Source: Telopea speciosissima (taxonomy: Eukaryota > Streptophyta > Magnoliopsida > Proteales > Proteaceae). From it: a DNA stretch of 64,000 nucleotides. Positions 8,090-62,494 of this stretch are shown here, piece by piece (positions within the stretch are counted from its first letter, which is position 1; every line of letters begins with the position of its first letter). The stretch is taken from assembly GCF_018873765.1 (NCBI RefSeq), contig NC_057920.1, positions 10,863,307 through 10,927,306 of the forward strand, written 5' to 3'. The position numbers were made by a program, and so were the translations under genes. The notes beneath the pieces were generated by a model. The model saw nothing but the letters and a program-made list of their open reading frames with translations. It ran no database searches and had not been told where the DNA came from.

Positions 8090-8094
8090 ATTTA
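8090..8094. repeat. Target site duplication of the copia element, left copy
   Basis: ATTTA lies directly outside the left LTR and is repeated at 13509-13513 outside the right LTR. Five bases is the normal copia duplication length. Confidence 0.9.
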
Positions 8095-8318
8095 TGTTCA
8101 GAACTAGAATACTAAAAACAGAACTGAGAAAGCTTGAATGATCTATTGTGATCACCCAGGCACCTTTATTTATAATGCTGGAATATGAAATTACATGACC
8201 AAAATACCCCTACCTAGCCGATACAGCTAGGCAGTACATAAACAACTATAAAACATAATACTAAAGCACCCAAAAGACCAGAATACCCCCACGGTATTCT
8301 GGTTTACATTATTCAACA
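8095..8318 (-). repeat. Copia LTR, 3' LTR of the element
   Basis: A 224-bp LTR that starts TGTTCAG and ends ATTCAACA, so it keeps the TG...CA ends. It is nearly identical to 13320-13508 apart from a length difference. It is the 3' LTR because the element reads on the minus strand. Confidence 0.92.
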
Positions 8319-8329
8319 CTCCCCCTCAA
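8319..8329 (-). other. Polypurine tract of the copia element
   Basis: On the minus strand TTGAGGGGGAG lies directly against the 3' LTR. It is the usual priming site for second-strand synthesis and confirms the element's direction. Confidence 0.8.
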
Positions 8330-10040
8330 GTTGGAGCAAATATGTCGATCATGCCCAACTTGACTAGATTAGGGTGAAATAATTTTCCAGGCAGACCCTT
8401 GGTGAAGATATCAACAAGCTGATCCGAAGAAGTCACAAAGGGAATACAAATCTGCCCATCTTCTAATTTCTCCTTGATGAAATGCCTATCCACCTCAACA
8501 TGTTTGGCACGGTCATGCTGCACCGGGTTGTGTGCTATACTTATTGCAGCCTTGTTATCGTAGTACAGCATCATAGGAAGGCGAATAGGGAGACCCAAGT
8601 CTTGTAGCAGCCCTTTAAGCCAAAGTAACTCACAAATTCCTTGTGCCATAGCTCTGAATTCAGCTTCGGCAGTAGAATGAGCAACTACATTCTGCTTCTT
8701 GCTACGCCAGGTAACAAGATTTCCACCTACAAAAGAACAATATCCAGAAATGGACTTTCGATCTGCTGAACCAGCCCAATCAGCATCGGTGTATGCCTCT
8801 ACCCGTAGGTGACCATGTGAGGACAAAAGAATGCCCTTTCCAGGAGCTGACTTCAAATAATGTAGAATACGAAGAACAACCTCCATATGAGAAGTGTAGG
8901 GATCATGCATAAATTGACTCACTGCACTTACAGCAACAGCAATGTCTGGACGAGTGTGTGAAAGGTAAATCAACTTCCCTACAAGTCTTTGGTACCGGCC
9001 TTTATCAACAGGCTCACCACCATTTTCCTTGAGCCAAACAGTAGGATCCATAGGAGTGTCCGAAGGGTGGCAGCCTAGCAAACCGGTTTCAGCCAACAAG
9101 TCTAGGACATACTTTCTTTGGGAGAGAAATATGCCTTTCGCAGATCTGGCCACTTCAATCCCAAGAAAGTATCTTAATTTGCCTAGATCTTTAATCTCAA
9201 ATTCCTGGCCAAGGAAGGTCTTCAACTGTCTGATCTCATCACCATCATTGCCAGTAACCACTATATCATCAACGTAGACTATAAGAACAGTGAGTTTTTC
9301 ACCAACCCTCTTGATGAAGAGTGTGTGATCAGCATTACTCTGCTTATAGCCCACAGAAATCATGGCCTTGTGGAATTGACCAAACCAAGCCCAAGGTGAT
9401 CAAGTTTCAGCCCATACGGTGCACGCTTCACCGCACACTTTTCCTCTATTATGTCACAAGAGAACCCTGGTGGAATGTCCATGTATACCTCCTCCTCCAG
9501 TGCTCCATTCAGGAAGGCATTTTTAACATCTAGCTATTGCAACTCCCAACCAAGGTTGACTGCACAAGATAACAACACACGAACTGTATTCAACTTTGCA
9601 ACAGGTGCAAAGGTCTCCTGGTAGTCTATGTCGTATGTCTGAGTAAAACCCCTGGCAACGAGCCGTGCCTTATATCTATCCACGGTGCCATCCACCTTCT
9701 GTTTCACCACAAACACCCATTTACATCCAACGATTTTCTTCCCAGGTGGAAGAACAACAAGCTCCCATGTGTTATTTTTTTTCAAGGCTTCCATTTCTTC
9801 CATCATGGCTACCTTCCACTTTCCATCTGATAAAGCTTCCTGCCAATTATTAGGAACACGAACAGAAGAAAGAGAAGTAACAAAAGCACGAAATGATGGG
9901 GAAAGGGAGTCATAAGAGACAACATGAGATATAGGATGCTGAGTACAAGTCCTGACACCTTTGCGAAGGGCAATAGGCAAGTCAGGAGAAGGAACATTAC
10001 CAGGTGGAGAGGTAGGTTCTGGATCCAGGTTCGGCAATTG
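8326..10040 (-). pseudogene. Copia reverse transcriptase and RNase H region (fossil)
   Basis: The reverse transcriptase part shows the copia signatures [19 protein letters not shown] and the catalytic YVDD with flanking IVYVDDIVVTG. RNase H follows, with EAYTDADWAG and the copia tail KHVEVDRHFIKEK. The region covers the end of pol nearest the 3' LTR. It is broken, as noted for the whole element. Confidence 0.9.
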
Positions 10041-10089
10041 GATGGGTACAGGAGCAACAGTGGATTGAACCTGATTATGTTTCCTTCCT

Positions 10090-11120
10090 TAGGTCTTCAT
10101 AGTGCTAGCATCAATCCTCCTCTGAAATTCACTAATGGTCCTCTGGACAGGAGTTTGGGCTTGAGGGGTCTGCTCCCCCTGAACAGGAACCTCAGTCTGG
10201 ACTGGAGTGGTCTGCTCCCCCTGAACAAGAACTTCTCCCCCTGACTCGGGGGGAGGACCAGAAGTAGGCTGAACAGACTCATTATAGACAGACTGGAGTG
10301 GAGGAGGATGCTCAACAGTCAACACATCTTCGCTAACACTCTCCCCCTGAAGAGGTGGGGACACATAGTAGGAGAGACGCTCATGAAACACAACATCCAT
10401 GCTGACAAAAGTCCGGCGAGATGGAGGGTGATAGCATTTATACCCCTTCTGAGTAGTAGAGTACCCCAAGAAAATGCACCGAAGACTACGGGGTTCAAGC
10501 TTGCTCGAGGACCTGATATCTCGGGCATAGCACACGCAGCCAAACACCTTAGGGGAACAATAAAGGAGGAAGAGCCAAGTAGTAGCTCAACAGGGGTCTA
10601 GAGTGAAGGACCGACGGGCAGCCTATTAATTAAATAGGCGGCGGTGAGAACAACATCCCCCAATGAAGCGAGGGGACATTCCGGCAAACAAAGGGCCCGA
10701 GCGACCTCTAAGAGGTGGCGGTTCTTCCTCTCGCCACACCATTTTGGGTGGAGTATCAACACACGGTGGTCGATGGAGGATCCCATGGGCAGCCAGGTAT
10801 TTTTGGAACCGACCTTCCATATACTCTCGCCCATTATTACTCCGTAAAATTTGAATAGTGCTATGAAATTGAGTTTGAACCAGCTAGTGAAGTGCTGAAA
10901 ACATGAGAAAACCTCCCTTTTGTTGTGCATCAGATAAACCCAAGTAAACCTAGAATAGCAATCAATAAAGGTGACATACCACCGATGACCCGAAAGGGCA
11001 ACTTTTCTACAAGGACCCCACACATCAGAATGAACAACATGAAATAAAGAAGATGACCTTTTATTAGAAATAGGATAGTTGGAACGTGTCTGTTTGGCCA
11101 AGACACAAGGCTCACAAAAA
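10090..11120 (-). pseudogene. Copia integrase region (fossil)
   Basis: The integrase core is seen in VHSDVWGP and YVTFIDCYSRFTWVYL. The downstream conserved copia block FGCVCYARD ... LRCIFLGYS links integrase to reverse transcriptase. A stretch rich in proline, glutamine and valine follows that block, as is usual for this linker. Confidence 0.85.
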
Positions 11121-11730
11121 AATCTTCTTTATTATAAGTTTTGCCTAATGCGGGAAATAAAGTAGATAAGGTTCCTAAAGGTGGATGTCCTAGTATAGAG
11201 TGCCATAAGTGTAATTCAGAGGAAAAAGATGCTGGTGAACAAAGCCTAGAAGGTAAAGCCTGTGTAGATGCAGGATCTCCATCAAGCAAGTACAATCCGC
11301 CATGCACTTTACCCGATCCAATCATCTTCCCCGAGTCCAGTTCCTGAAAAACACAATGAGTAGGAAAGAATGTCACTTTGCAGTTTAAAGATTTAGTGAT
11401 ACTACTAATGGAGAGAAGGTTAGTAGTAAACTTGGGAATATATAACACAGAAGATAAAGACAATGAAGGAGAACAACCAATGGAGCCCTTCCCAGATATG
11501 GAGGAGAGGGACCCATCAGCAATTTTTACTTTGTCTTTACTAGAAGCAGGGAAGTAGGTATTAAAAAGACTGGAGGAACCTGTCATGTGATCAGTAGCTC
11601 CAGAGTCTATGATCCAAGGAGTGGAGACCACTGATGCACAATGACCAGCAAAGGAAATACCTGTATGGGCAAAGAAGGAACCTGAATTGACAGCAAATGT
11701 AGTGGGGGCAGCAAATGTGTTCAACAGACG
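11120..11730 (-). pseudogene. Copia protease and GAG-pre-integrase region (fossil)
   Basis: WIIDSGATDHMTG is the copia aspartic protease motif (D-S-G). LLSISSITKSLNC and LHLWHSILGHPP mark the end of protease and the GAG-pre-integrase zinc-binding module that precedes integrase. Confidence 0.88.
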
Positions 11731-11739
11731 CTGGAGAGC

Positions 11740-13000
11740 TTGAAGTTCTTCCTAGGAGAAACCAATGTCAGTAGTGGGAGCTGAAGCTACACTTTCAGTG
11801 TGATTGGCCTTGTTTTTAGATTTAACACGACCACGTTTGCTCTCAAAATCAGCTGGCTTCCCATGAAGTTTCCAACACTGAGCCTTAGTGTGATATGGTT
11901 TGTGGCACTGATCACACTTCACAGGCTCTTTACTAGCAGCAGAGCAGCAACATTATCGGCAGAAGTGTCGGTAGTGATGGAACCGTGAGTCGTAAAGCTG
12001 ATCTGTCAACCTTAGGAGTAATCATCATAGCAGCCCTCCTTGTCTCTTTGTGAACATATGAAAAGGTTTCCTCCAAAGTGGGAAAAGGAACCCGACCAAG
12101 AACCTGCACCCGAATAGGGTCATAATCATCATTAAGTCCAGCCAGGAAGTCATAGACTAAACCGATCTACATAAGTGTGGTAGGTCGTAATATCTGCAGC
12201 AGAGTAGGCGAGAATCGAGCATAGTGATCCGATTGCTGCCATAAGCACTTGAGGGCAGCATAGTACTTGGTGATTGTCATCTCTTTCGGGTAGTGTTTTG
12301 AAGAGTCTTTCGGATCTCATAAACCGAGCACCACCCCTGACGACCATAAGTACCCTTGACAAGCAGTCCATATCGAGTCGCAGTTGTCAAGGAGAAGGTC
12401 TGACTAGAAATGTCGATGGTCATAGAATTCGAACAAAAGACATCACCATCGCATCATTAGCTGCCCATTTAGTGCGGGCAACCCCTTCTTGATGGGCTGT
12501 TTGGTGATACCATTAAGGTGGCAGTGAGTCCCCTGCCGCCACGATGAGGGATAAGGATCTGGCCCAAATCGGATAATTGGTACCATCTAGTTTTATGGCA
12601 GAGATAGGGCAGGAAATCAGTCCTGGTCTGATCTCCTCCAAGATGCTGATGTAACCTCTGAGTCACCCATAATGCAGCAAGGTAAAATTCGAGTTTTTTG
12701 AAAAAAACTGAATTTCCAAAAATTCTGCAATAGTCGATCTGAAATTGGACAGAATTCTGATCTTCAAAAAACAGCAGGAATTCAAGGCTGAAATAGTGTC
12801 GAGTACAGCAATATAACCAGGGAATAATCCCTCAAAAAATCTTCCCAAACAGCAGCCTAGAAGAACCAAATCGATAAAGTGTCAGGGTTTTGCAAAACCC
12901 TGACAGTTGAGATCGATAAGAAGAGGAAAGAGGCTGCAGCTGTGGGATCTTCAATCAATGTGAAATCAGAGAGGATAGATGCTGTCGTAGGCCTGCATTG
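11740..13000 (-). pseudogene. Copia gag region with CCHC zinc knuckle (fossil)
   Basis: On the minus strand near 11874-11920 a CDQCHKPYHTKAQC block gives a C-X2-C-X4-H-X4-C zinc knuckle, the nucleic-acid-binding end of gag. The sequence towards 13000 is the rest of gag, less well preserved. A purine-rich leader (about 13207-13262) lies between gag and the 5' LTR. Confidence 0.75.
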
Positions 13001-13307
13001 ATGCTCCAAAGAAACCAATCGATCTCCCAACTGTTATGAGATCGATCTCCAAAAAATCTGAAGCAATCCTGAATCGCAGAGAGAGATAATGGCAGCAGCT
13101 ATCGATCTGAATTAGGTTTTAAAATTGAGGTGAGATGGAGGGCAGCACTCGAACCATAGATGGATCACCTCATGGGTGCTGCCCTAAAAAGGGTTGAATG
13201 GATCAAAGGAAGAGAAGAGAGAAGGGAGAAGGGAGAGGAGAAAGGGGAGAGGAGAGGAATCAAGGGAAAAGGGTTTTTTGAACAATCGAGCAGGTCTTAA
13301 AACCCTA

Positions 13308-13319
13308 GCTCTGATACCA
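13308..13319 (-). other. Primer binding site of the copia element
   Basis: On the minus strand TGGTATCAGAGC follows the 5' LTR directly. This is the common plant copia primer site, complementary to the 3' end of initiator methionine tRNA. Confidence 0.9.
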
Positions 13320-13508
13320 TGTTCAGAACTAGAATACTAAAAACAGAACTGAGAAAGCTTGAATGATCTATTGTGATCACCCAGGATGACCTTTATACCC
13401 CTGCCTAGCCGATACAGCTAGGCAGTACATAAACAACTATAAAACATAATACTAAAGCACCCAAAAGACCAGAATACCCCACGGTATTCTGGTTTACATT
13501 ATTCAACA
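13320..13508 (-). repeat. Copia LTR, 5' LTR of the element
   Basis: A 189-bp LTR with TG...CA ends (TGTTCAG to ATTCAACA). It matches the 8095-8318 LTR closely and is somewhat shorter. The TSD ATTTA follows at 13509-13513. Confidence 0.92.
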
Positions 13509-19321: not shown

Positions 19322-19518
19322 GGATCTGGCTCTCCTCGAGCCGTGACGGGAGCTGGAGGTTCCAGCCCTTTAAAACCACCCAAAAAACAGGGGCTGGTGA
19401 GTTGGTCATTTCACAGGTGGGCCCCACCTGTAAATGACCAGCCCACCCTTGTTTTTGCTGTCCTTTTGCGGGGCTGGACCCTCCAGCTCCTGCCACGGGC
19501 CGGAGGAAATACATTTCC
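19322..19518. repeat. Mutator-like MITE with GGAT ends
   Basis: Terminal inverted repeats of about 48 bases are seen (GGATCTGGCTCTCCTCGAGCC against GGAAATGTATTTCCTCCGGCC read inward, then GGAGCTGGAGG in both). The flanks GCCCACTGT and GACCACTGT match at 8 of 9 bases, a Mutator-length duplication. The centre is a near-palindrome around GGTGGGCCCCACC. It has no coding capacity. Confidence 0.7.
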
Positions 19519-24223: not shown

Positions 24224-24394
24224 GGGATTGAGCTCCCCTTCAGGGAGCCCAACACGCCCAGGGGGTATCCAGCCATTGGGCTATGTCGCACACATCCCTA
24301 GGCATGCATCGAGATGTGTGCGGCACAACCCAACCCTTGGATGCCCCCTGGGCACTCCTTGGGTACTGAGCTCCCTGGAGAGGAGTCTGGTCCC
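24224..24394. repeat. Foldback MITE with GGGA ends
   Basis: The left arm GGGATTGAGCTCCCCTTCAGG pairs with the right arm read inward GGGACCAGACTCCTCTCCAGG. The inner parts CCAGGGGG...ATCC and ATGTCGCACACATC also pair with the other half. Flanking nine-mers do not match well, so the superfamily is open. Confidence 0.55.
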
Positions 24395-24520
24395 ACTTTT
24401 CTGCTGATGTCGAGAGCTTAGTAAGTAAATAAGTGTATAATACATTTATCCATCCATATTGATAAAAAAAAAAGTATTTTTTAAAAGCCACGGATTTTAA
24501 AGGATCAAGGATTTTTTTTG

Positions 24521-24959
24521 GGGTAAAGTACACGTACCCCCCTGTAATGCACCCAATATTCCTCGTACCCCCCTAAGCTTCTGAAAAGTCCACTTACCAC
24601 CCCTCAATATTCCACGTACCACCCCTGCTTTACCCCTCTAATGCCATTTAAGTCCACACCAAGTGTTAAATGCTAAAAAATGACCAAACTACCCTTTCTT
24701 CTATCTTTTCTAAAATTTGAAAAGACCAAATTGCCCTTACCTATTTGCTAAAATTTAAAAATACCAAAATGCCCTCATCTTCCCCAAATCATTATCTTCT
24801 TTTACATACCCAATACCACCACCACCACCCACCATTAACACCATCACCACCGTGAAGCCCCACCTCCAGCACCACCGCCACGTACCACCATTAATACCAC
24901 CAACCATCTTCTTCCCCAGATCGTTTCTCCAAAACATGAAACCCTAAACACATTTTAGG
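24521..24959. repeat. Left terminal inverted repeat of the Pack-MULE-like element
   Basis: A 439-base arm from GGGTAAAGTA to CATTTTAGG. It is the reverse complement of 25804-26226 with scattered substitutions and small indels. Its inner edge supplies the TAA that ends the captured kinase frame. Confidence 0.82.
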
Positions 24960-25602
24960 CTTCCTGTTCCTTACCTGCAACAGATTCCGGTGACATATAA
25001 AGAGGGGTTCCTCTAAAACTCAAAGACTGGCGTTTGTTCATCCTCTTCCTCTTCCTCTGTTCTATCATGGTATTCTTAGCAGAACCAAAATCAGCAATTT
25101 TCGCGACATAGTCATTACGAGTTGTGTCTAAAGAAGAAGACGAGCAAAGCACGAGCATGATATTCTGGGGTTTGATATCGCAATGAACGTAATCACGATC
25201 ATGAATATGGTTAAGACCCTGAAGAATCGAGTGGGTATAGCACCTAACATCAGTTTCAGGCAATCCGCCATGGGAGTTCTTAATCCGAGAAGCTAAGGTA
25301 CCTCCAAAGGCATATTCCAGGAAGACATTGTAGGTTAACTCACCATTCTCCATAGTCATCTCGTTGCCGTAGCAGCGTAGAATGTAAGAACATCCTTTGG
25401 ACCTGGTGAGTATCTCCCTTTCCTTCTGGAGGGTTCCGGAACGAGAGACCTCAGCCCATTTCATAGCCATCAATCGTGGGAGATGGTTTCGATGCTTGAT
25501 GACTTTCTGTTTTGCTGTGGCCAAAGAAATAGTACCGAAGCTCCCTCGACCAATGGTATAGCCTCTCCTCCTCATTCCTCCAGGACTCTTCTGTCGTTCC
25601 AT
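24955..25602 (-). pseudogene. Truncated MAPKKK-like Ser/Thr kinase, captured gene fragment
   Basis: The 215-codon frame begins with ATG at 25602. It shows a glycine loop GRGSFG (18-23), catalytic lysine in AMKW (K48), the catalytic loop HCDIKPQN (140-147), DFG (171-173) and GTPLYMSPE (198-206). HCD in place of HRD and the spacing resemble plant MAPKKK17/18/20-type kinases, which act at the top of MAP kinase cascades. It stops just after the APE-like motif, so the C-terminal half of the kinase lobe is absent. The last codons before the stop adjoin the left inverted arm, which provides TAA. The upstream 200 bases (25603-25803) may be the donor gene's leader. An active kinase is unlikely. The family is clear, the exact orthologue is not. 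Confidence 0.85.
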
Positions 25603-25803
25603 CTTGGTGGAGTGCTCAGAATGCTAGGGTTAGGGCTTCTTTCTTTCAATGTTGAACTTCCAATGTAGAGGGATTTGGGGTTTCCTGGCAAAGCAATAAA
25701 GAATTTAACGATATTAGAAGGATTAAAGAATTAAAGGAAGCCACCACACAGTAAAATTAGGATTAATGGCTGACAGTGTGTGGGGACAGTCGGGTTTTGC
25801 AAC

Positions 25804-26226
25804 CCTAAAATGGGTTTAGGGTTTCATGTTTTGGAGAAACGATCTGGGGAAGAAGATGGTTGGTGGTATTAATGGTGGTGCTGGAAGTGGGGCTTCACGA
25901 TGGTGATGGTGTTAATGGTGGGTGGTGGTGGTATTGGGTATGTAAAAGAAGATAATGATTTGGGGAAGATGAGGGCATTTTGGTATTTTCAAATTTTAGC
26001 AAATAGGTCAGGGCAATTAGGTATTTTCAAATTTTAAAAAAGATAGAAGAAAGGATAGTTTGATCATTTTTTAGCATTTAATACTTGGTGTGGACTTAAA
26101 TGGCATTAGGAGGGTAAAACATGGGTGATACGTGGAATATTGAGGGATGGTACGTGGACTTATCAGAAGCTTAGGGGATTACGAGGAATATTGGGTGCAT
26201 TTAAGGGGGGTACGTGTACTTTACCC
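25804..26226. repeat. Right terminal inverted repeat of the Pack-MULE-like element
   Basis: A 423-base arm running from CCTAAAATGGGTTTAGGG to GTACTTTACCC, paired with 24521-24959. A T12 run directly follows it. Confidence 0.82.
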
Positions 26227-26408
26227 TTTTTTTTTTTTGGGTAGAAAGATCAAGGATTAAACACGTATAAAGCGTATTATACACCATTAAATACGTTGAT
26301 TTATTAAAAAAAAAAAAAAAAAAAACTACACCCACGAAGGAAATCCCAAACAAAACTGTTCACGTTCTCTGGTTTTGGTAACCTAGCCCTTCCCCCTTGT
26401 CTCCATCT

Positions 26409-26563: not shown

Positions 26564-27269
26564 GGTACATTTTCCTTTTATGTTCTTCTTCTCCTCTTCC
26601 TTTACCGACCCCACAGAAACCTCTTACCTTTCTCCAAAGTAAGGAAGAAGTCGAATGAATTAAGAAAGTAGGTAACTAGCTTCTAAGTATTGAATGCGCT
26701 TGGAATTCGGTGTGTTAAGCATATACATTTGGTTTCGTTTACTTGGTTCTTTATTGTCACTTTTGATTGTATAGTTTAGTTATCCGTTCCAGCCAGCTTC
26801 TCTATTCTGTTCTTCTTCCTTCTATTATACTCTTTCCCTCTCTGGTAACTTTTTGGAGTTTGGAGCTCCCAACAGAACAGCTGCCGAATGACCATGAAAT
26901 CCGGCCAGTTTTGGCCGATGTTTGTTTGTTCATTACTTGGGGGTTTAGGAATCCTTTCTTTGTATGATGGGCCAATGGGAAGAACTGAAGACGACTGTGA
27001 GGGTTGAGAAGGGGTGTATTTGCCCAACCGGCAAGGTCAGCAACCACCCGCCTTCTCCAGGTTATCCTTTTCCTTAGTATTTTCCCTTTTCGTTTCAGGT
27101 TTTAGGAAAGCGTCTGGTCCTTTCCTGTGTTGCTGTGATGGTATCATGAACTTTCTATTATTTTCTTTACTTTCATCTTATTTTGAATGATTGTTGTGGC
27201 ATCAATTGTGGACCAATTGCATGAGATAGATGTGTAACCCTTGATGTTTGAAGGAATATCTGTTGCAGT

Positions 27270-27401
27270 CATAGTTATCAAGGCGGGAAAGCGACCATGG
27301 CATTTTAGAGGGGCAAAATTCAAGGCGACACCGCCATGGCGCCCAAGGCGTCCAAGGCGACCAAGGGGCATGGACGCCATTGCGACGTCTTGATAACTAT
27401 G
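27270..27401. repeat. hAT-type MITE with perfect 8-bp target duplication
   Basis: The ends CATAGTTATCAAGGCG and CGTCTTGATAACTATG are inverted copies. GTTGCAGT flanks it exactly at 27262-27269 and 27402-27409, the hAT duplication length. It lies in the proposed leader intron of the FAR1-related gene. Confidence 0.82.
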
Positions 27402-27762
27402 GTTGCAGTTGCTTCAAAAAATATAGGCTGTAATAATGATTAATGTTATTATTTTGTTTGTTAGTTGGTGTACATGTTTGTTTCCTAGTGCATATATGTC
27501 CGTATTTTTTCTTCAGAGTGGTCGTATTAAACACGTACCGTATCATTGCCATATGCAGTTCATTATGCCGGATTTTTAAAAAGTATTATTGTCGTCTAGT
27601 CCGTTTAATTGTTGTATGTATCCGTACCCGTTTTATTGCTGTTACCCAACTTCATCTGTCATTTCGCAATTTTTCACTTCTCATATTTTTTCCCTCCCCA
27701 CCTTTTCCTATCTCTTCAGTCACTTATTTTGTCTAATCCTCAGCTTTACGTACTTTGTTTGT

Positions 27763-28242: not shown

Positions 28243-30249
28243 ATGGGAGACGAAGACATTGGTCTAGATGTTGAGAATCAGCCTCAGATCGGCATGAAGT
28301 TTAATTCAGAGAATGAGGCATATGATTTCTACAATAGCTATGGGGGAAGGATGGGTTTTAGTGTTAGGAGAGAATATGCACATAAGAGCAAAAAAGATAA
28401 GACAATCATAACTTCAAGGAGATTCGTATGTAGTAAACAAGGATATCGAAAAAAAGACAAGCGAGATATTGGTCCAAACAAACCTCGAGCAGAGACAAGG
28501 ACCGATTGTCCTGCACGGATGGGGATTGCACTTTTGGATAATGGACAATACCAGTGTCGTGATTTTGTTGAAGAGCATAATCACCTCCTTCATCTACCGA
28601 TTACCATTCATATGATGCGGTCACAACGGAAACTTTCAGATGTACATGCTTTTGAAATCAATTTGGCTGATGATTCCAGAATCATACCTTAGGCCATGTT
28701 TGAGTGTATGGGTAGGCAAGCAGGTGGGACACAAAACTTTGGGTACATCCGAGAAGATCATAAAAATTATCTCCGAACTAAACGTCAGCGTGACTTATCT
28801 TATGGTGAAGCCGGGAGTTTGTTACTGTACTTTCAAAAACAAATTCGGGTCAATCCCTTTTTTACTTACTCATTGCAGTTTGATAGTGAAGAAAAAATAA
28901 CAAATATATTTTGGGCCGATCCGGAGATGATATTAGATTATGCACAGTTTGGTGATGTTGTTAACTTTGATACTACATTTTTCACCAACAAAGAATATAG
29001 GCCGTTTGGTATTTTTGCTGGATTTAATCATCATAGAGGAGTTGTCATATTTGGGGCTGCACTGTTATACGATGAGACAGTTGAATCTTTCAAATGGTTG
29101 TTTGAGACATTCTTGGAAACTAATGGGCAAAAGAAGCCTATAACCATTTTTACTGATCAAGATGCTGCAATTGAAAAGGCAATACTTGAGGTGTTTCCTG
29201 AGACATGGCATAGATTGTGTACTCGACAGATTATGCAAAATAGTATAAAACATCTAGGGAATTTGATGAAGGATGAAACAAGTTTTTTGAAAGATTTCAA
29301 AACTTGTATGTCTCATTATGAGGAGGAACTAGAATTTGAAAAGGCATGGAAAAAACTGTGTAATGATTATCGAGTTGAAAATGATTTATGGTTGGATCGT
29401 ATTTATGGGCTAAAAGAGAAATGGGCAAAGTGTTATATGAAGAAGACCTTCAGTATAGGTATGCAAAGTACACAACTCAGTGGAAAATTAAATGGGGACT
29501 TGAAGGATTACTTGAAATTCAGTTTGGATATTGTGCAATTTTTTAAACATTTTGAAAGGGTAGTGAATGATAAGCGTGATAAAGAATTAAAGGTTGAGTT
29601 TGATGCAAGAAATAAGCTGCCAAGAAATCTGTTTTCCAAGTCACCCATTATGAAACAAGCAGGAGAAGTTTACACTCCTTGGATATTTGAAGAATTTCAA
29701 GAGGAGTATAAGTGGATTAGTGCTTGCTACATTAAATTTCGGAATGAAAGTAATGCCTTGTATGAGTATGTAGTTGCTGTTGTTGAGCAAGAAGGGGATT
29801 TTAAAGTCTTGTGTAACCTATTTGAGTCTATGGTTGAATGTAGCTGCAGGAAATTTGAGACATTTGGTATTCTATGTTGCCATGCTTTGAAAATTCTAGA
29901 TGTGCTAGATATCAAGTTCATTCCTGAAGCATATGTTTTGAAGAGATGGACGCGGGCAGCAAGAGACATGGTGGTGAAAGATAATAAGGGAAAACAAGTT
30001 GAAGAAGATGTTCATTTGGATTGTACACAACGTTATAGGCTTCTTTGTCCCATACTAATTAAGATAGCATTACAAGCATCTTATTCAGTAGAGGGATATG
30101 CTTTGGCAATCAAAGCTGCTAATGAGTTGTGTAAAAAGCTTAAAAATCTTTACATCGATGCTCCGCATCTAGATGCTTCAAGTAACGGTTCTTATGTGAG
30201 AAAAGCAAAACGACTTAAGAAGAGAAAGGGTTACAAAGTTGGACAATGA
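28243..30249 (+). CDS. FAR1-RELATED SEQUENCE (FRS)-like protein, one in-frame stop
   Basis: FRS/FAR1 proteins are nuclear, transposase-derived transcription factors. The first 149 codons hold a FAR1 DNA-binding zinc finger (FVCSKQG, TDCPARM, HNH; C63, C89, H112, H114). After a TAG at 28690-28692 the same frame continues for 517 codons from ATG 28696. This part has the MULE transposase fold (NFDTTF, IFTDQDAA) and a SWIM zinc finger (CSC ... CCH) at about 380-396, ending at TGA 30247-30249. The TAG sits where relatives usually have AAG (lysine), so one base change explains it. The motif usually C-T-W-H is C-T-R-Q here. Either a young pseudogene or two shorter products; the downstream frame alone would lack DNA binding. 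The start is the first ATG after a plausible 3' splice site (TGCTATGCAG). Confidence 0.88.
28690..28692 (+). other. In-frame TAG inside the FRS-like gene
   Basis: The codon after RIIP is TAG, followed by GCC ATG TTT GAG in the same frame. Coding similarity to FRS proteins runs straight across it, so it is an internal stop and not a natural gene end. Confidence 0.9.
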
Positions 30250-50233: not shown

Positions 50234-50387
50234 GTTTTCTATCTGGGAGTGTGGCCTACGTCAGCACTCCCATGAGTCTATCTTTCTCTTCCTCAAAATA
50301 AAGGGGCAGAGGTATCTTTTCATATGAGAAGAGAGAGATAGACTCATGGGAGTGTAGGGGTAGGCTACACTCCCGGATAGAGCCAAC
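50234..50387. repeat. MITE with GGGAGTGT / CTCATGGGAGTG arms
   Basis: Arms of about 58 bases: TTTCTATCTGGGAGTGTGG and CACTCCCATGAGTCTATC on the left are mirrored on the right. A partial second copy (TCCCATGAGTCTATCTC) follows at 50388-50410. It is the same family as 51461-51600 and 22926-22990. Confidence 0.78.
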
Positions 50388-51600: not shown

Positions 51601-51645
51601 AAAACTATTTCTCTTTTTTTTTTTTTCTATCTACTTAATGGAAAA

Positions 51646-51818
51646 AAGAATGCCACTTGATCGCGCAACGCGGTGTGTACCTGCGCCTAGACACAGCTGC
51701 GCTTGAAATGATCGGCACACACCCTGGAAAGGACCAGGGGTGCACCAGTCATTTTGCACGCAGTTGTGTTTGGGCGCAAGTACAGGCCACATTGCGCAAC
51801 TAGGTGGCATTCTTTCTC
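51646..51818. repeat. MITE with AAGAATGCCAC ends, 8-bp target duplication
   Basis: AAAGAATGCCACTTGATCGCG on the left pairs with AAAGAATGCCACCTAGTTGCG read inward from the right. TACTTAAT flanks it on both sides (about 51632-51639 and 51823-51830). The inner words CCTGCGCC and GGGCGCAAGTAC also mirror each other. Confidence 0.78.
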
Positions 51819-51829
51819 CCATACTTAAT

Positions 51830-57834: not shown

Positions 57835-58094
57835 AAACCTCACCAATCACCAATCTCTGAGTTTTAGTTCTTTCGTTCATTTTTACCCTTTTTTTCGGGT
57901 TTTCCTGACAGTAATCTATCGGCTCTCCGTATTTGCGTCGAAGCTTTCGGCTTTCTTGTGTTCTAAGTTTCGTCTTCATTCCCCCTTTTATCGTTAATTA
58001 AATACAGACTCTTCTTCTCCATTTTCATCTTCAACCTTTAGGGTTCGCCTTCCTTTCGTCCTTTCTTTTTTTATGAGGAACGTTTAGGTAGAGA

Positions 58095-59525
58095 ATGAGA
58101 GAGGAATCGAGAGGAGGTACCATGTTTGCAGAATCAGACGGTGTTTCCCGTTCTAAATTCGGTAATCTCTTACATTCTGATCCAAGCATTCCCACTGCAA
58201 CTGACGAAGACGAAGATTTCAAACCTCGTAAAAGCAGCGTTTCTGAAGCAACTCCACCCTTCTACGATCGTAGCGGCCCCATGAGTCCAGATAGCTCTCC
58301 CTATAACATGTCCCCTTGGGACGCAACTTCATCTCCTTACAGCAAGTCTCCATGGACGAGAAACTCTCCTGTAAGTCCCTTCGATGAGAATTTCCCAACC
58401 AATGGCCTAATCGGATCCCTAGTTCGCGAAGAAGGTCATATTTACTCTTTGGCAGCTTCAGGGGACCTTCTCTACACCGGATCGGATAGCAAGAACATTC
58501 GCGTCTGGAAGAACCAGAAGGAGTTCTCTGGTTTCAAATCAAACAGTGGATTGGTTAAAGCAATTGTTATTCGTGGTGAGAAGATCTTTACTGGTCACCA
58601 GGATGGGAAGATTCGTATGTGGAGGGTTTCCTCTAAGAACCCTAGCGTTTACAAGCGTGCTGGAGCTTTACCGACCTTGAAAGAATTCATCAAGAGCTCA
58701 CTCAATCCGAGCAATTATGTGGAGGTAAGACGTAACAGGAATGGTCTCTGGATCAAGCATTGTGATGCTATTTCTTGTCTTAGCTTGAATGAGGATCAAA
58801 GTCTGCTTTACTCTGGTTCTTGGGATAAAACCTTCAAAGTTTGGAGAATCTCAGATTCCAAATGCTTGGAATCAATAAACGCTCACGACGATGCCGTCAA
58901 CTCTGTTGTCACCGGTTTCGATGGTATGGTCTTCACCGGCTCCGCCGATGGAAGCGTTAAAGTCTGGCGGAGAGAAATACAGGGGAAAGGAACGAAACAC
59001 TTCTTCGTACAAACGTTGCATAAACAGGAATGTGCCGTAACGGCGTTAGCCGTGAACCCATTGTCGCAAATTCTGTATTGTGGTTCATCTGACGGACTCG
59101 TTAACTTCTGGGAGCACGGGAAGCACCTTTCACACGGTGGGGTCATTAGAGGACATAAGTTAGCCGTCCTATGCCTATCTGCAGCTGGGAATCTTGTATT
59201 TACTGGGTCCGCGGACAAGACGATTTGCGTTTGGAGGAGAGAAGGTGGGAATCACTCGTGTCTTTCTGTTTTGACAGGTCATACTGGACCCGTTAAATGC
59301 TTGGCCCACGAAGAAGATCGGGAATCAACGGCTAGTGATCAACGATGGATCGTGTACAGTGGAAGCCTAGATAAATCTGTGAAGGTGTGGAGGGTTTCAG
59401 AGCAAGCACCTGATCTGCAACAATTGGCAGCCATGCAGGAATACATGGCGGAGAATTACACGAATCAAGATGGTCAGAGCTTCTCTTTCCCTGGCACTGG
59501 CACTGGCAAGAAACGGCATTACTGA
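58095..59525 (+). CDS. JGB: JINGUBANG-like WD40 repeat protein
   Basis: Intact single-exon frame of 476 codons, the usual length for this plant family. Arabidopsis JINGUBANG restrains pollen tube germination in moist air, and its relatives are a plant-specific WD40 group. The N-terminal 100 residues are Ser/Pro-rich and probably disordered. Then [17 protein letters not shown] opens seven WD blades at about 115-139, 150-177, 221-251, 262-291, 310-339, 352-380 and 394-432, with clear signatures ([60 protein letters not shown]). ATG 58095 is first; ATG 58122 (GTACCATG, 467 codons) is an equal alternative. Which paralogue is unclear; the name is family-level. Confidence 0.93.
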
Positions 59526-59863: not shown

Positions 59864-60805
59864 AAATAAAATTTCATTCAAATAAGTTGCATGAAAAACA
59901 AAAAAGTTTGGGTACGAAATATCCAAAACCAAAGAATGGAATATGATCAATCTGTCGTACATGTACTTAATAGGGTCCTCCAAGCTAGGGTATGGGCAAG
60001 CCCACCAATTTCAGATAAAAATCCTCTCCTGTATTGTCGGGTGTGCGGTGTACATCTTGCGGCACAATAGAGGCCATGTGTGCCACGTGGCCTTTGCTGT
60101 GCCGTAAGATGTGCGTCGCACAACCAGTAATACTACAAAGGATCCTAGTCCAGCAATTTCCCTAGATAACACGCTGTAAACACAGCTTACATTACGATTA
60201 CATATATGATTCTTGTGAGTGGTGATGGGCATGGCAGACAACACCATGTGATTACCCATCATAATTAACGATAGCCTATCTAGTCCCCACTTTCCAAAAA
60301 AAGGCATGACAAACAAACCGGGTTTTCCAGCCCATTGTTGGTGACGACGTTTTTTGGACCGTTGTCGGTAGCGGGGGTGTTGGCGAGCCAGCTACGGTTA
60401 GCAGAGTCTTGGAGAAGGACTGGCATGAGCGCACAAACCTCCCATCTTCGGGATCCAGTGACGCACATCTCGGCAGCCACGAAGATGCACCTGCTACCAG
60501 CAACAAGGAAGCGAAAGCTAAGGCGAGCAACGATGAGGTCGTGGCACGCTTCCAAATGGTGCCAAGTGAGGAGGAGGGCGTCGAAGGAGAAGGGGCTGGT
60601 GGAGAAAATGCAGACAGGGTGTTGGGACTGAGAGGATCGGAGTGTTGGGAAGGCGGAAGAGGAGGCGTTGGAGTTGGTGTTGGTGTTGGTGTTGGCGTTG
60701 GTGTTGGCGGTGGAGTGATGGATGTCACCAAAGACGAGGTAAAACCAGATGCGAGAAACAAGGTTGAAAGCGCAGATTGAAGTGAGGGAATGGTAGTTGT
60801 AATAC
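59864..60805 (-). repeat. Local duplication unit A, copy 1
   Basis: About 940 bases repeated at 61565-62490 with high similarity (TTTCATTCAAAT...TTGTAATAC). It contains a foldback (60020-60146) that pairs TGTGCGGTGTACATC with GATGTGCGTCGCACA. On the minus strand two frames stay open across much of 60276-60951, one with a (PT)n or (NT)n run caused by a GGTGTT microsatellite (60664-60712). Conservation of frame between the copies is better in the frame reading CIFVAAEMCVTGSRRWEVCAL. No protein family is recognised. The A/T-run at the left edge would be a poly-A tail on the minus strand. Confidence 0.8.
60664..60712. repeat. (GGTGTT)n microsatellite
   Basis: Seven to eight GGTGTT-like units in copy 1, but only two or three in copy 2 (about 62380-62400), so the run expanded after duplication. 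Confidence 0.8.
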
Positions 60806-60928
60806 ATTTTTTTTTCCCGTAAAACCTCATACACGAATGAATAACATATTTCAATAAAATGCCTTTGATTCCAATTAATGTATTCAATTAAACTTGGACA
60901 ACTTGTGAAGTCTCTTTTATACAATTTG

Positions 60929-61462: not shown

Positions 61463-61565
61463 GGTTCTCTATATGGGAGGGGTTTGGGTCATCCAAAGGG
61501 TAGGTCGGTCATTTCGCTCACCTCCATGTGTCTAGATACACCCTGCCCCCATGTAGAGAATTTGA
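61463..61565. repeat. Mutator-like MITE, TTCTCTATATGGG ends
   Basis: GGTTCTCTATATGGGAGGGG on the left pairs with AATTCTCTACATGGGGGC read inward. It sits exactly at the left edge of duplication copy 2. Confidence 0.6.
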
Positions 61566-62490
61566 AATAAAATTTCATTCAAATATGTTGCATGAGAAAC
61601 ACAAGGTTTAGGTACGAAGTATTCAAAACCAGGGAATGGAATATGACCAATTTGTCGTACATGCACTTGACAGGGTCCTCCAGGGTAGGGTATGGGCAAG
61701 CCCAACAATTTCGAATAAAAATCCTTTGCAGTACAGCCGGGTGTGTGGTGCACATCCAGCAGCACAGCAGAGGCCATGTGTGTCATGTGTGCCACGTGGC
61801 CTCTGCTGTGTTGCAGGATGTACACCGCACACCTAACGGTACTACAGAGGATCTTGGTCCAACAATTTCCCTAGATAACACGCTGTAAACACAGCTTACA
61901 TTATGATTCCATACATGATTATTGTGAGTGGTGATGGGCATGGCAGACAACACCATGTGATTACCCATCATGATTAACTACAACCTATCTGGTCCCCACT
62001 TTCCAAAAAACAGGCCTGGCAAACAAAGCGCGTTTTCCAGCCCATTATTGGTGACAATGTTTATTGGCCCGTTGTCGATAGTGGTAGTGTTGGCGAGCCA
62101 GCTACGGTTAGCAGAGTCCTTGAGAAGGACCAGCATGAGCGCACAAACCTCCCATCTCCGGGATCCAGTGATGCACAGCTCGGCAACCACGAAGATGCAC
62201 CTGCTACCGGCAGCAAGGAAGTGAAAGCTGAGGCAAGCGACGATGAGGTCGTGACGCGCTTCCAAATGGTGCCAAGTGAGGAGGAGGGCGGCGAAGGAGA
62301 AGGGGTCGGTGGAGAAAATGCAGACAGGGTGTTGGGACTGAGAGGATCGGAGTGTTGGGAAGGCAGAAGAGGAGGCATTGGCATTGGTGTTAGCGGTGGA
62401 GTGATGGATGTCGCCAAAGGAGAGGTAAAACCGATGCGAGAAACAAGGTCAAAAGCGAAGGTTGAAGCGAGGGAATGGAAATTGTAATAC
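61565..62490 (-). repeat. Local duplication unit A, copy 2
   Basis: Matches 59864-60805 nearly throughout, with base changes and fewer GGTGTT units. It includes the same foldback (about 61720-61840). The corresponding minus-strand frames 61978-62265 and 62061-62492 stay open over shorter stretches. Confidence 0.8.
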
Positions 62491-62494
62491 AAGG

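Follow-up and report, generated by a model that had tools for sequence, protein, structure and literature searches.

A 1.7-kb unit of probable Pack-MULE type carrying a truncated protein kinase frame upstream of a FAR1-related gene in Telopea speciosissima

A 1.7-kb unit in the genome of Telopea speciosissima, in which two long inverted arms face each other across part of a protein kinase gene, raises the question of whether it is a transposable element with a captured host gene fragment and, if so, whether the frame that it carries still functions. Pack-MULEs are a recognised route by which plants copy and relocate gene pieces, and an earlier note on this locus had proposed a Pack-MULE-like element with a recently captured, MAPKKK-like kinase fragment. 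We analysed the unit within the whole 64-kb stretch of DNA in which it lies (termed the window herein).

Inverted arms and flanking repeats

The left arm (24521-24962, plus strand, 442 bp) begins GGGTAAAGTACACGTACC and contains the stop codon of the kinase frame, and the right arm (25801-26226, minus strand) measures 426 bp. The two are 90.95% identical across 442 columns; 24 of the 426 ungapped columns are mismatched (5.6% divergence), and there are two gaps of 13 and 3 bases. Both arms start and stop at matching points, facing each other exactly. Their match reaches 623 bits, compared with at most 33.7 bits after mononucleotide shuffling of the region (30 shuffles) and 147 bits for the runner-up among 38 overlapping window tiles. 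The pair of roughly 430-bp inverted arms described earlier is thus present and far above chance, and the interior between them was also found, with a length of 838 bp rather than the 844 bases given. Both arm lengths fall inside the range of 100 to 500 bp stated for the terminal inverted repeats (TIRs) of MULEs, which are accompanied by target-site duplications (TSDs) of 9 to 11 bp (excerpt of PMC3310237).

Folding of the 1,734-nt unit gave predicted energies of −935 and −968 kcal/mol for the two strands, with 401 and 409, respectively, of the first 449 positions pairing with the opposite arm; 11 control stretches of the window folded at −413 to −499 kcal/mol. A search at E 0.1 yielded no further arm copy within the 64-kb window besides the pair itself, the remaining matches being 15 to 26 bp long and several of them T-runs. 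The exact 18-base arm end had no match in viral contigs, a collection not expected to contain plant DNA, and a single match, in Hymenobacter, among prokaryote genome contigs (257 billion bases), where plant DNA is not expected either; the latter was dismissed as chance, since several random hits are expected in a collection of this size. Of the arm-end strings that were looked for in the literature, only a 10-base string appeared among the matches listed, in papers whose titles are not on transposons.

Two direct repeats lie in the flanks of the arm pair. The exact 11-bp repeat GATCAAGGATT (candidate TSD A, unstranded) occupies 24503-24513 and 26248-26258, 7 bp outside the recognisable arm end on the left and 21 bp outside it on the right. 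It occurs twice on the plus strand of the window and not at all on the minus strand. As a control, 4,493 overlapping pairs of 40-bp flanks were drawn with equal spacing from other parts of the window; 2 of them had an exact repeat of at least 11 bp. The outer limits proposed earlier, 24503-26259, agree with this repeat to one base, with no mention of the repeat itself. Candidate TSD B consists of T-rich 9-mers that directly adjoin the arm ends: the left one (24512-24520, eight T then G) overlaps the left 11-mer by two bases, and the right one (26227-26235) lies within a T12 run (26227-26238). The two agree at 8/9 positions and are of low complexity (276 of the 63,992 9-mers in the window have eight or more T).

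TSDs are required to flank the TIR ends immediately (excerpt of PMC3310237) and are 8 to 11 bp long in MULEs (excerpt of PMC6446971). Here, either the 11-mer or the T-rich 9-mer could be the duplicated target site. If it is the 11-mer, the element has 7 and 21 terminal bases that do not form inverted copies of one another; if it is the T-run, the 11-mer is a pre-existing repeat. With two distinct direct repeats in the flanks (24512-24520 and 26227-26258), one of them needs an explanation besides target-site duplication.

The C-T differences between the arms are lopsided, with 10 cases of C on the left and T on the right and 1 of the reverse (binomial P = 0.012), so that the divergence would date the element poorly and we assign no age to it. 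MULE arms, moreover, need not match perfectly when inserted. Given arms that are diverged by 5.6%, and unevenly so, the description of the capture as recent was not upheld. A steeper divergence in the outer arm halves seemed to be present at four cuts (Fisher P = 0.054, 0.006, 0.006, and 0.029; for example, 19/221 versus 5/205), but it was dropped, as 273 of 5,000 permutations reached the observed contrast when the cut was left free.

The window contains several other repeats. A small foldback, an abutting 49-nt inverted repeat with 78% complementarity, lies just left of the element (24256-24353), and four further self-complementary foldbacks (19341-19498, 50238-50381, 51638-51822, and 61718-61855) span 138 to 186 alignment columns with 72 to 77% identity to their own reverse complement. 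A Ty1-copia-like element on the minus strand (8094-13508; RVT_2 domain in 8329-9399) has direct repeats (8094-8318 and 13319-13508) with 83% agreement across 225 columns; this element, the FAR1-related gene, and the general character of the window fit a plant nuclear genome. A direct duplication (59864-60806 and 61565-62491) with 85% identity over 953 columns lies downstream of a WD40-repeat gene (58092-59525). Scans of the window returned no tRNA genes and no Rfam matches.

The kinase frame, its class, and its product

Most of a minus-strand open frame of 215 amino acids plus stop (24955-25602) lies in the 838-bp interior, and it is the only ATG-started frame of at least 80 amino acids inside the element. 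It matches PF00069 (Pkinase) with an E value of 1.9e-27 over profile positions 5 to 172 of 263, and the motifs GRGSFG, HCDIKPQN, DFG, and GTPLYMSPE are legible. The frame was thus rightly recognised as a kinase with glycine loop, HCD loop, DFG, and MSPE, but it extends over about the N-terminal two thirds of the domain rather than a "5' half." The TAA stop (TTA on the plus strand, 24955-24957) is left-arm sequence, as had been claimed: the arm match covers 24955-24959 unbroken, has one mismatch at 24960, and extends to 24962. The term "chimeric open frame" applies insofar as the arm gives the stop and at most the last codon, but it contributes no coding sequence beyond these. Upstream of the ATG, a non-arm stretch of 198 bp (25603-25800, minus strand) may represent the 5' leader or proximal promoter of the donor gene. 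Pack-MULEs are defined as carrying a fragment of a gene for a known (non-hypothetical) host protein (excerpt of PMC4858842); the Pkinase match gives the unit cargo of this kind, presumably captured.

Inside the element, 18 further frames of at least 40 amino acids run unbroken from stop to stop, and none of them gave a transposase in Pfam at E 0.1. Seventeen of these frames had no Pfam match at E 0.1, and the remaining one hit MauE below threshold (E 0.0064; 17.2 bits, cut-off 27).

The earlier label "MAPKKK-like" is plausible. Among the best 60 of 804 distinct matching PDB sequences, the top chain was MAP3K2 (1.2e-11), but PDK1 was nearly equal in second place (1.7e-11), and the published MEKK signature is not exactly matched. 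That signature is G(T/S)PX(F/Y/W)MAPEV in plants and is missing from 3 of 33 tomato MEKK members (excerpt of PMC4103895); the frame reads GTPLYMSPES, with both the A and the V replaced by S. The RAF signature GTXX(W/Y)MAPE from the same excerpt (PMC4103895) fits the frame with one difference. One kinase relative was found in viral contigs; its best segment is 28% identical, which is uninformative.

An active kinase is unlikely, because the part of the C-lobe beyond the activation segment is absent: the frame ends just past this segment and lacks the last third of the profile, where most of the C-lobe lies, including its large helices. The product is probably inactive. It could be argued from the 215 open codons and the presence of the catalytic motifs that selection has kept the frame, which would then yield a working regulatory kinase fragment. 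We consider this very improbable. In neutral simulations with the arm divergence as yardstick, each of three settings was run 20,000 times, and the frame stayed open in 46% of runs with substitutions alone, in 22% once indels were added, and in 5% when both were doubled; its openness is therefore no evidence of selection. In addition, the domain breaks off at profile position 172 of 263. No minus-strand TATA[A/T]A lies upstream of the ATG up to 26400, and three poly(A)-like hexamers are all absent downstream as far as 24301; plant genes often lack TATA or poly(A)-like hexamer motifs. Because the arms are predicted to pair into a long hairpin on either strand, small-RNA silencing of the element would be a likelier product than a protein if the unit is transcribed through.

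Identity of the unit and alternative origins

The long arms, the direct repeats that bracket them, the lack of a detectable transposase, and the gene fragment, which retains a start codon and the stretch preceding it, together argue for a non-autonomous Mutator-like element of Pack-MULE type, which we hold, with good confidence, to be the best reading of the 1.7-kb unit. These features support the earlier designation as Pack-MULE-like; the distance of 7 and 21 bp between the 11-bp repeat and the arm ends, the low complexity and imperfect match of the abutting 9-mers, and the lack of a further arm copy in the 64-kb window speak against it, and neither a relative with a transposase nor a donor was seen. 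An element with TIRs of about 430 bp would have acquired the 5' part of a protein kinase gene, from the leader and the start codon through roughly two thirds of the kinase domain, probably via template switching in repair or replication. It would then have transposed to the site before the FAR1-related gene or may already have resided there. We infer the MULE transposase as mover, the mechanism of capture, and the existence of a donor gene from the structure of the unit.

An origin in another superfamily (for example hAT, with an 8-bp TSD) or in a non-MULE foldback would accommodate the abutting T-rich repeat, which is alike at 8/9 positions and might be taken to be less than 9 bp long. hAT ends are short, and arms of more than 400 bp together with an 11-bp repeat fit MULEs best, making such an origin improbable. 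Still less weight falls on the view that two short elements from the same family landed separately, in opposite orientation, to the left and right of a kinase pseudogene that was already in place. Independent copies might differ as the arms do, by 5.6% in ungapped columns and two gaps, but the arm ends correspond, the arms face each other exactly, and no solo arm exists elsewhere in the window. No such repeat surrounds either arm alone, which disfavours two independent insertions: the 11-bp repeat encloses both arms together, and the 40-bp flanks of the single arms share longest common words of 5 and 6 bp, the same as random pairs.

Within the Pack-MULE-type reading, the kinase piece may have been pasted into a resident MULE or foldback, with the composite never having moved; this is possible, and we give it clearly the smaller share. 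One copy is visible here in 64 kb, and filling of gaps independently of transposition is the route described for most single-copy metazoan Pack-TIRs (excerpt of PMC8277862), but nothing at this locus tells such a paste apart from a capture with later transposition. The same excerpt (PMC8277862) sets out two models of capture, gap filling with template switching and fork stalling with template switching plus transposition, and calls the applicability of either to plant Pack-MULEs worth exploring.

Taken as a Pack-MULE-type unit, the locus is most likely an ordinary example of an already described class of plant elements: a clean single case with kinase cargo, sited 5' of a gene, that adds an instance and not a principle. 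No literature pairing a Pack-MULE with a MAPKKK was found, which says little about novelty, since kinase fragments would be unremarkable cargo and the coverage took in few subscription journals.

Genomic setting and comparison with known systems

The element sits just 5' of a probable FAR1-related gene (28243-30249, plus strand) with FAR1, MULE, and SWIM domains. A TATAAA motif (26266-26271, plus strand), located 7 bp beyond the right 11-mer, is a candidate core promoter for this gene; judging by its sequence, the region that follows may comprise a 5' leader exon up to a CAG/GTACAT donor near 26564 and then a long intron. This presumed 5' intron contains a MITE-like unit (27270-27401) with the ends CATAGTTATCAAGGCG and CGTCTTGATAACTATG, flanked by the exact 8-bp direct repeat GTTGCAGT (27262-27269 and 27402-27409). 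An in-frame TAG (28690-28692) lies between the FAR1 and MULE domains of the gene and might indicate a pseudogene, a shortened product, or a sequence error.

MULEs show a preference for the 5' ends of genes. Insertion of MULEs in or near genes is described in PMC6446971 (excerpt), and the position of the element agrees with this. The element might have replaced the upstream promoter of the FAR1-related gene, so that the MULE arm drives the gene or silences it via hairpin-derived small RNAs, with the kinase leader acting as a divergent promoter; we regard this scenario as quite unlikely. If true, it would mean that a MULE arm controls a gene whose own ancestor was a MULE transposase.

Three known systems invite comparison. 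One is formed by Mu killer and long-hairpin loci in maize, of which Mu killer arose by rearrangement of an autonomous element; the inverted MULE arms described here could, as in Mu killer, yield double-stranded RNA if transcribed through. Ssk-FB4, a foldback-type MULE of Drosophila, also carries gene material between long inverted arms, but it forms a family of many copies that differ in their TSDs (excerpt of PMC8277862), whereas the unit here is a single copy with a truncated gene in a plant host; TSDs of 9 to 10 bp and arms of about 700 bp are given in that excerpt (PMC8277862). Pack-MULEs of rice, tomato, maize, and other plants differ from this unit in that the TSD can here be placed in two ways with respect to the arm ends and a single copy is seen in the window. 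They share with it the long arms, the non-autonomous structure, and the internal gene fragment, as well as a nearby direct repeat whose length suits a MULE and a position just 5' of a gene.
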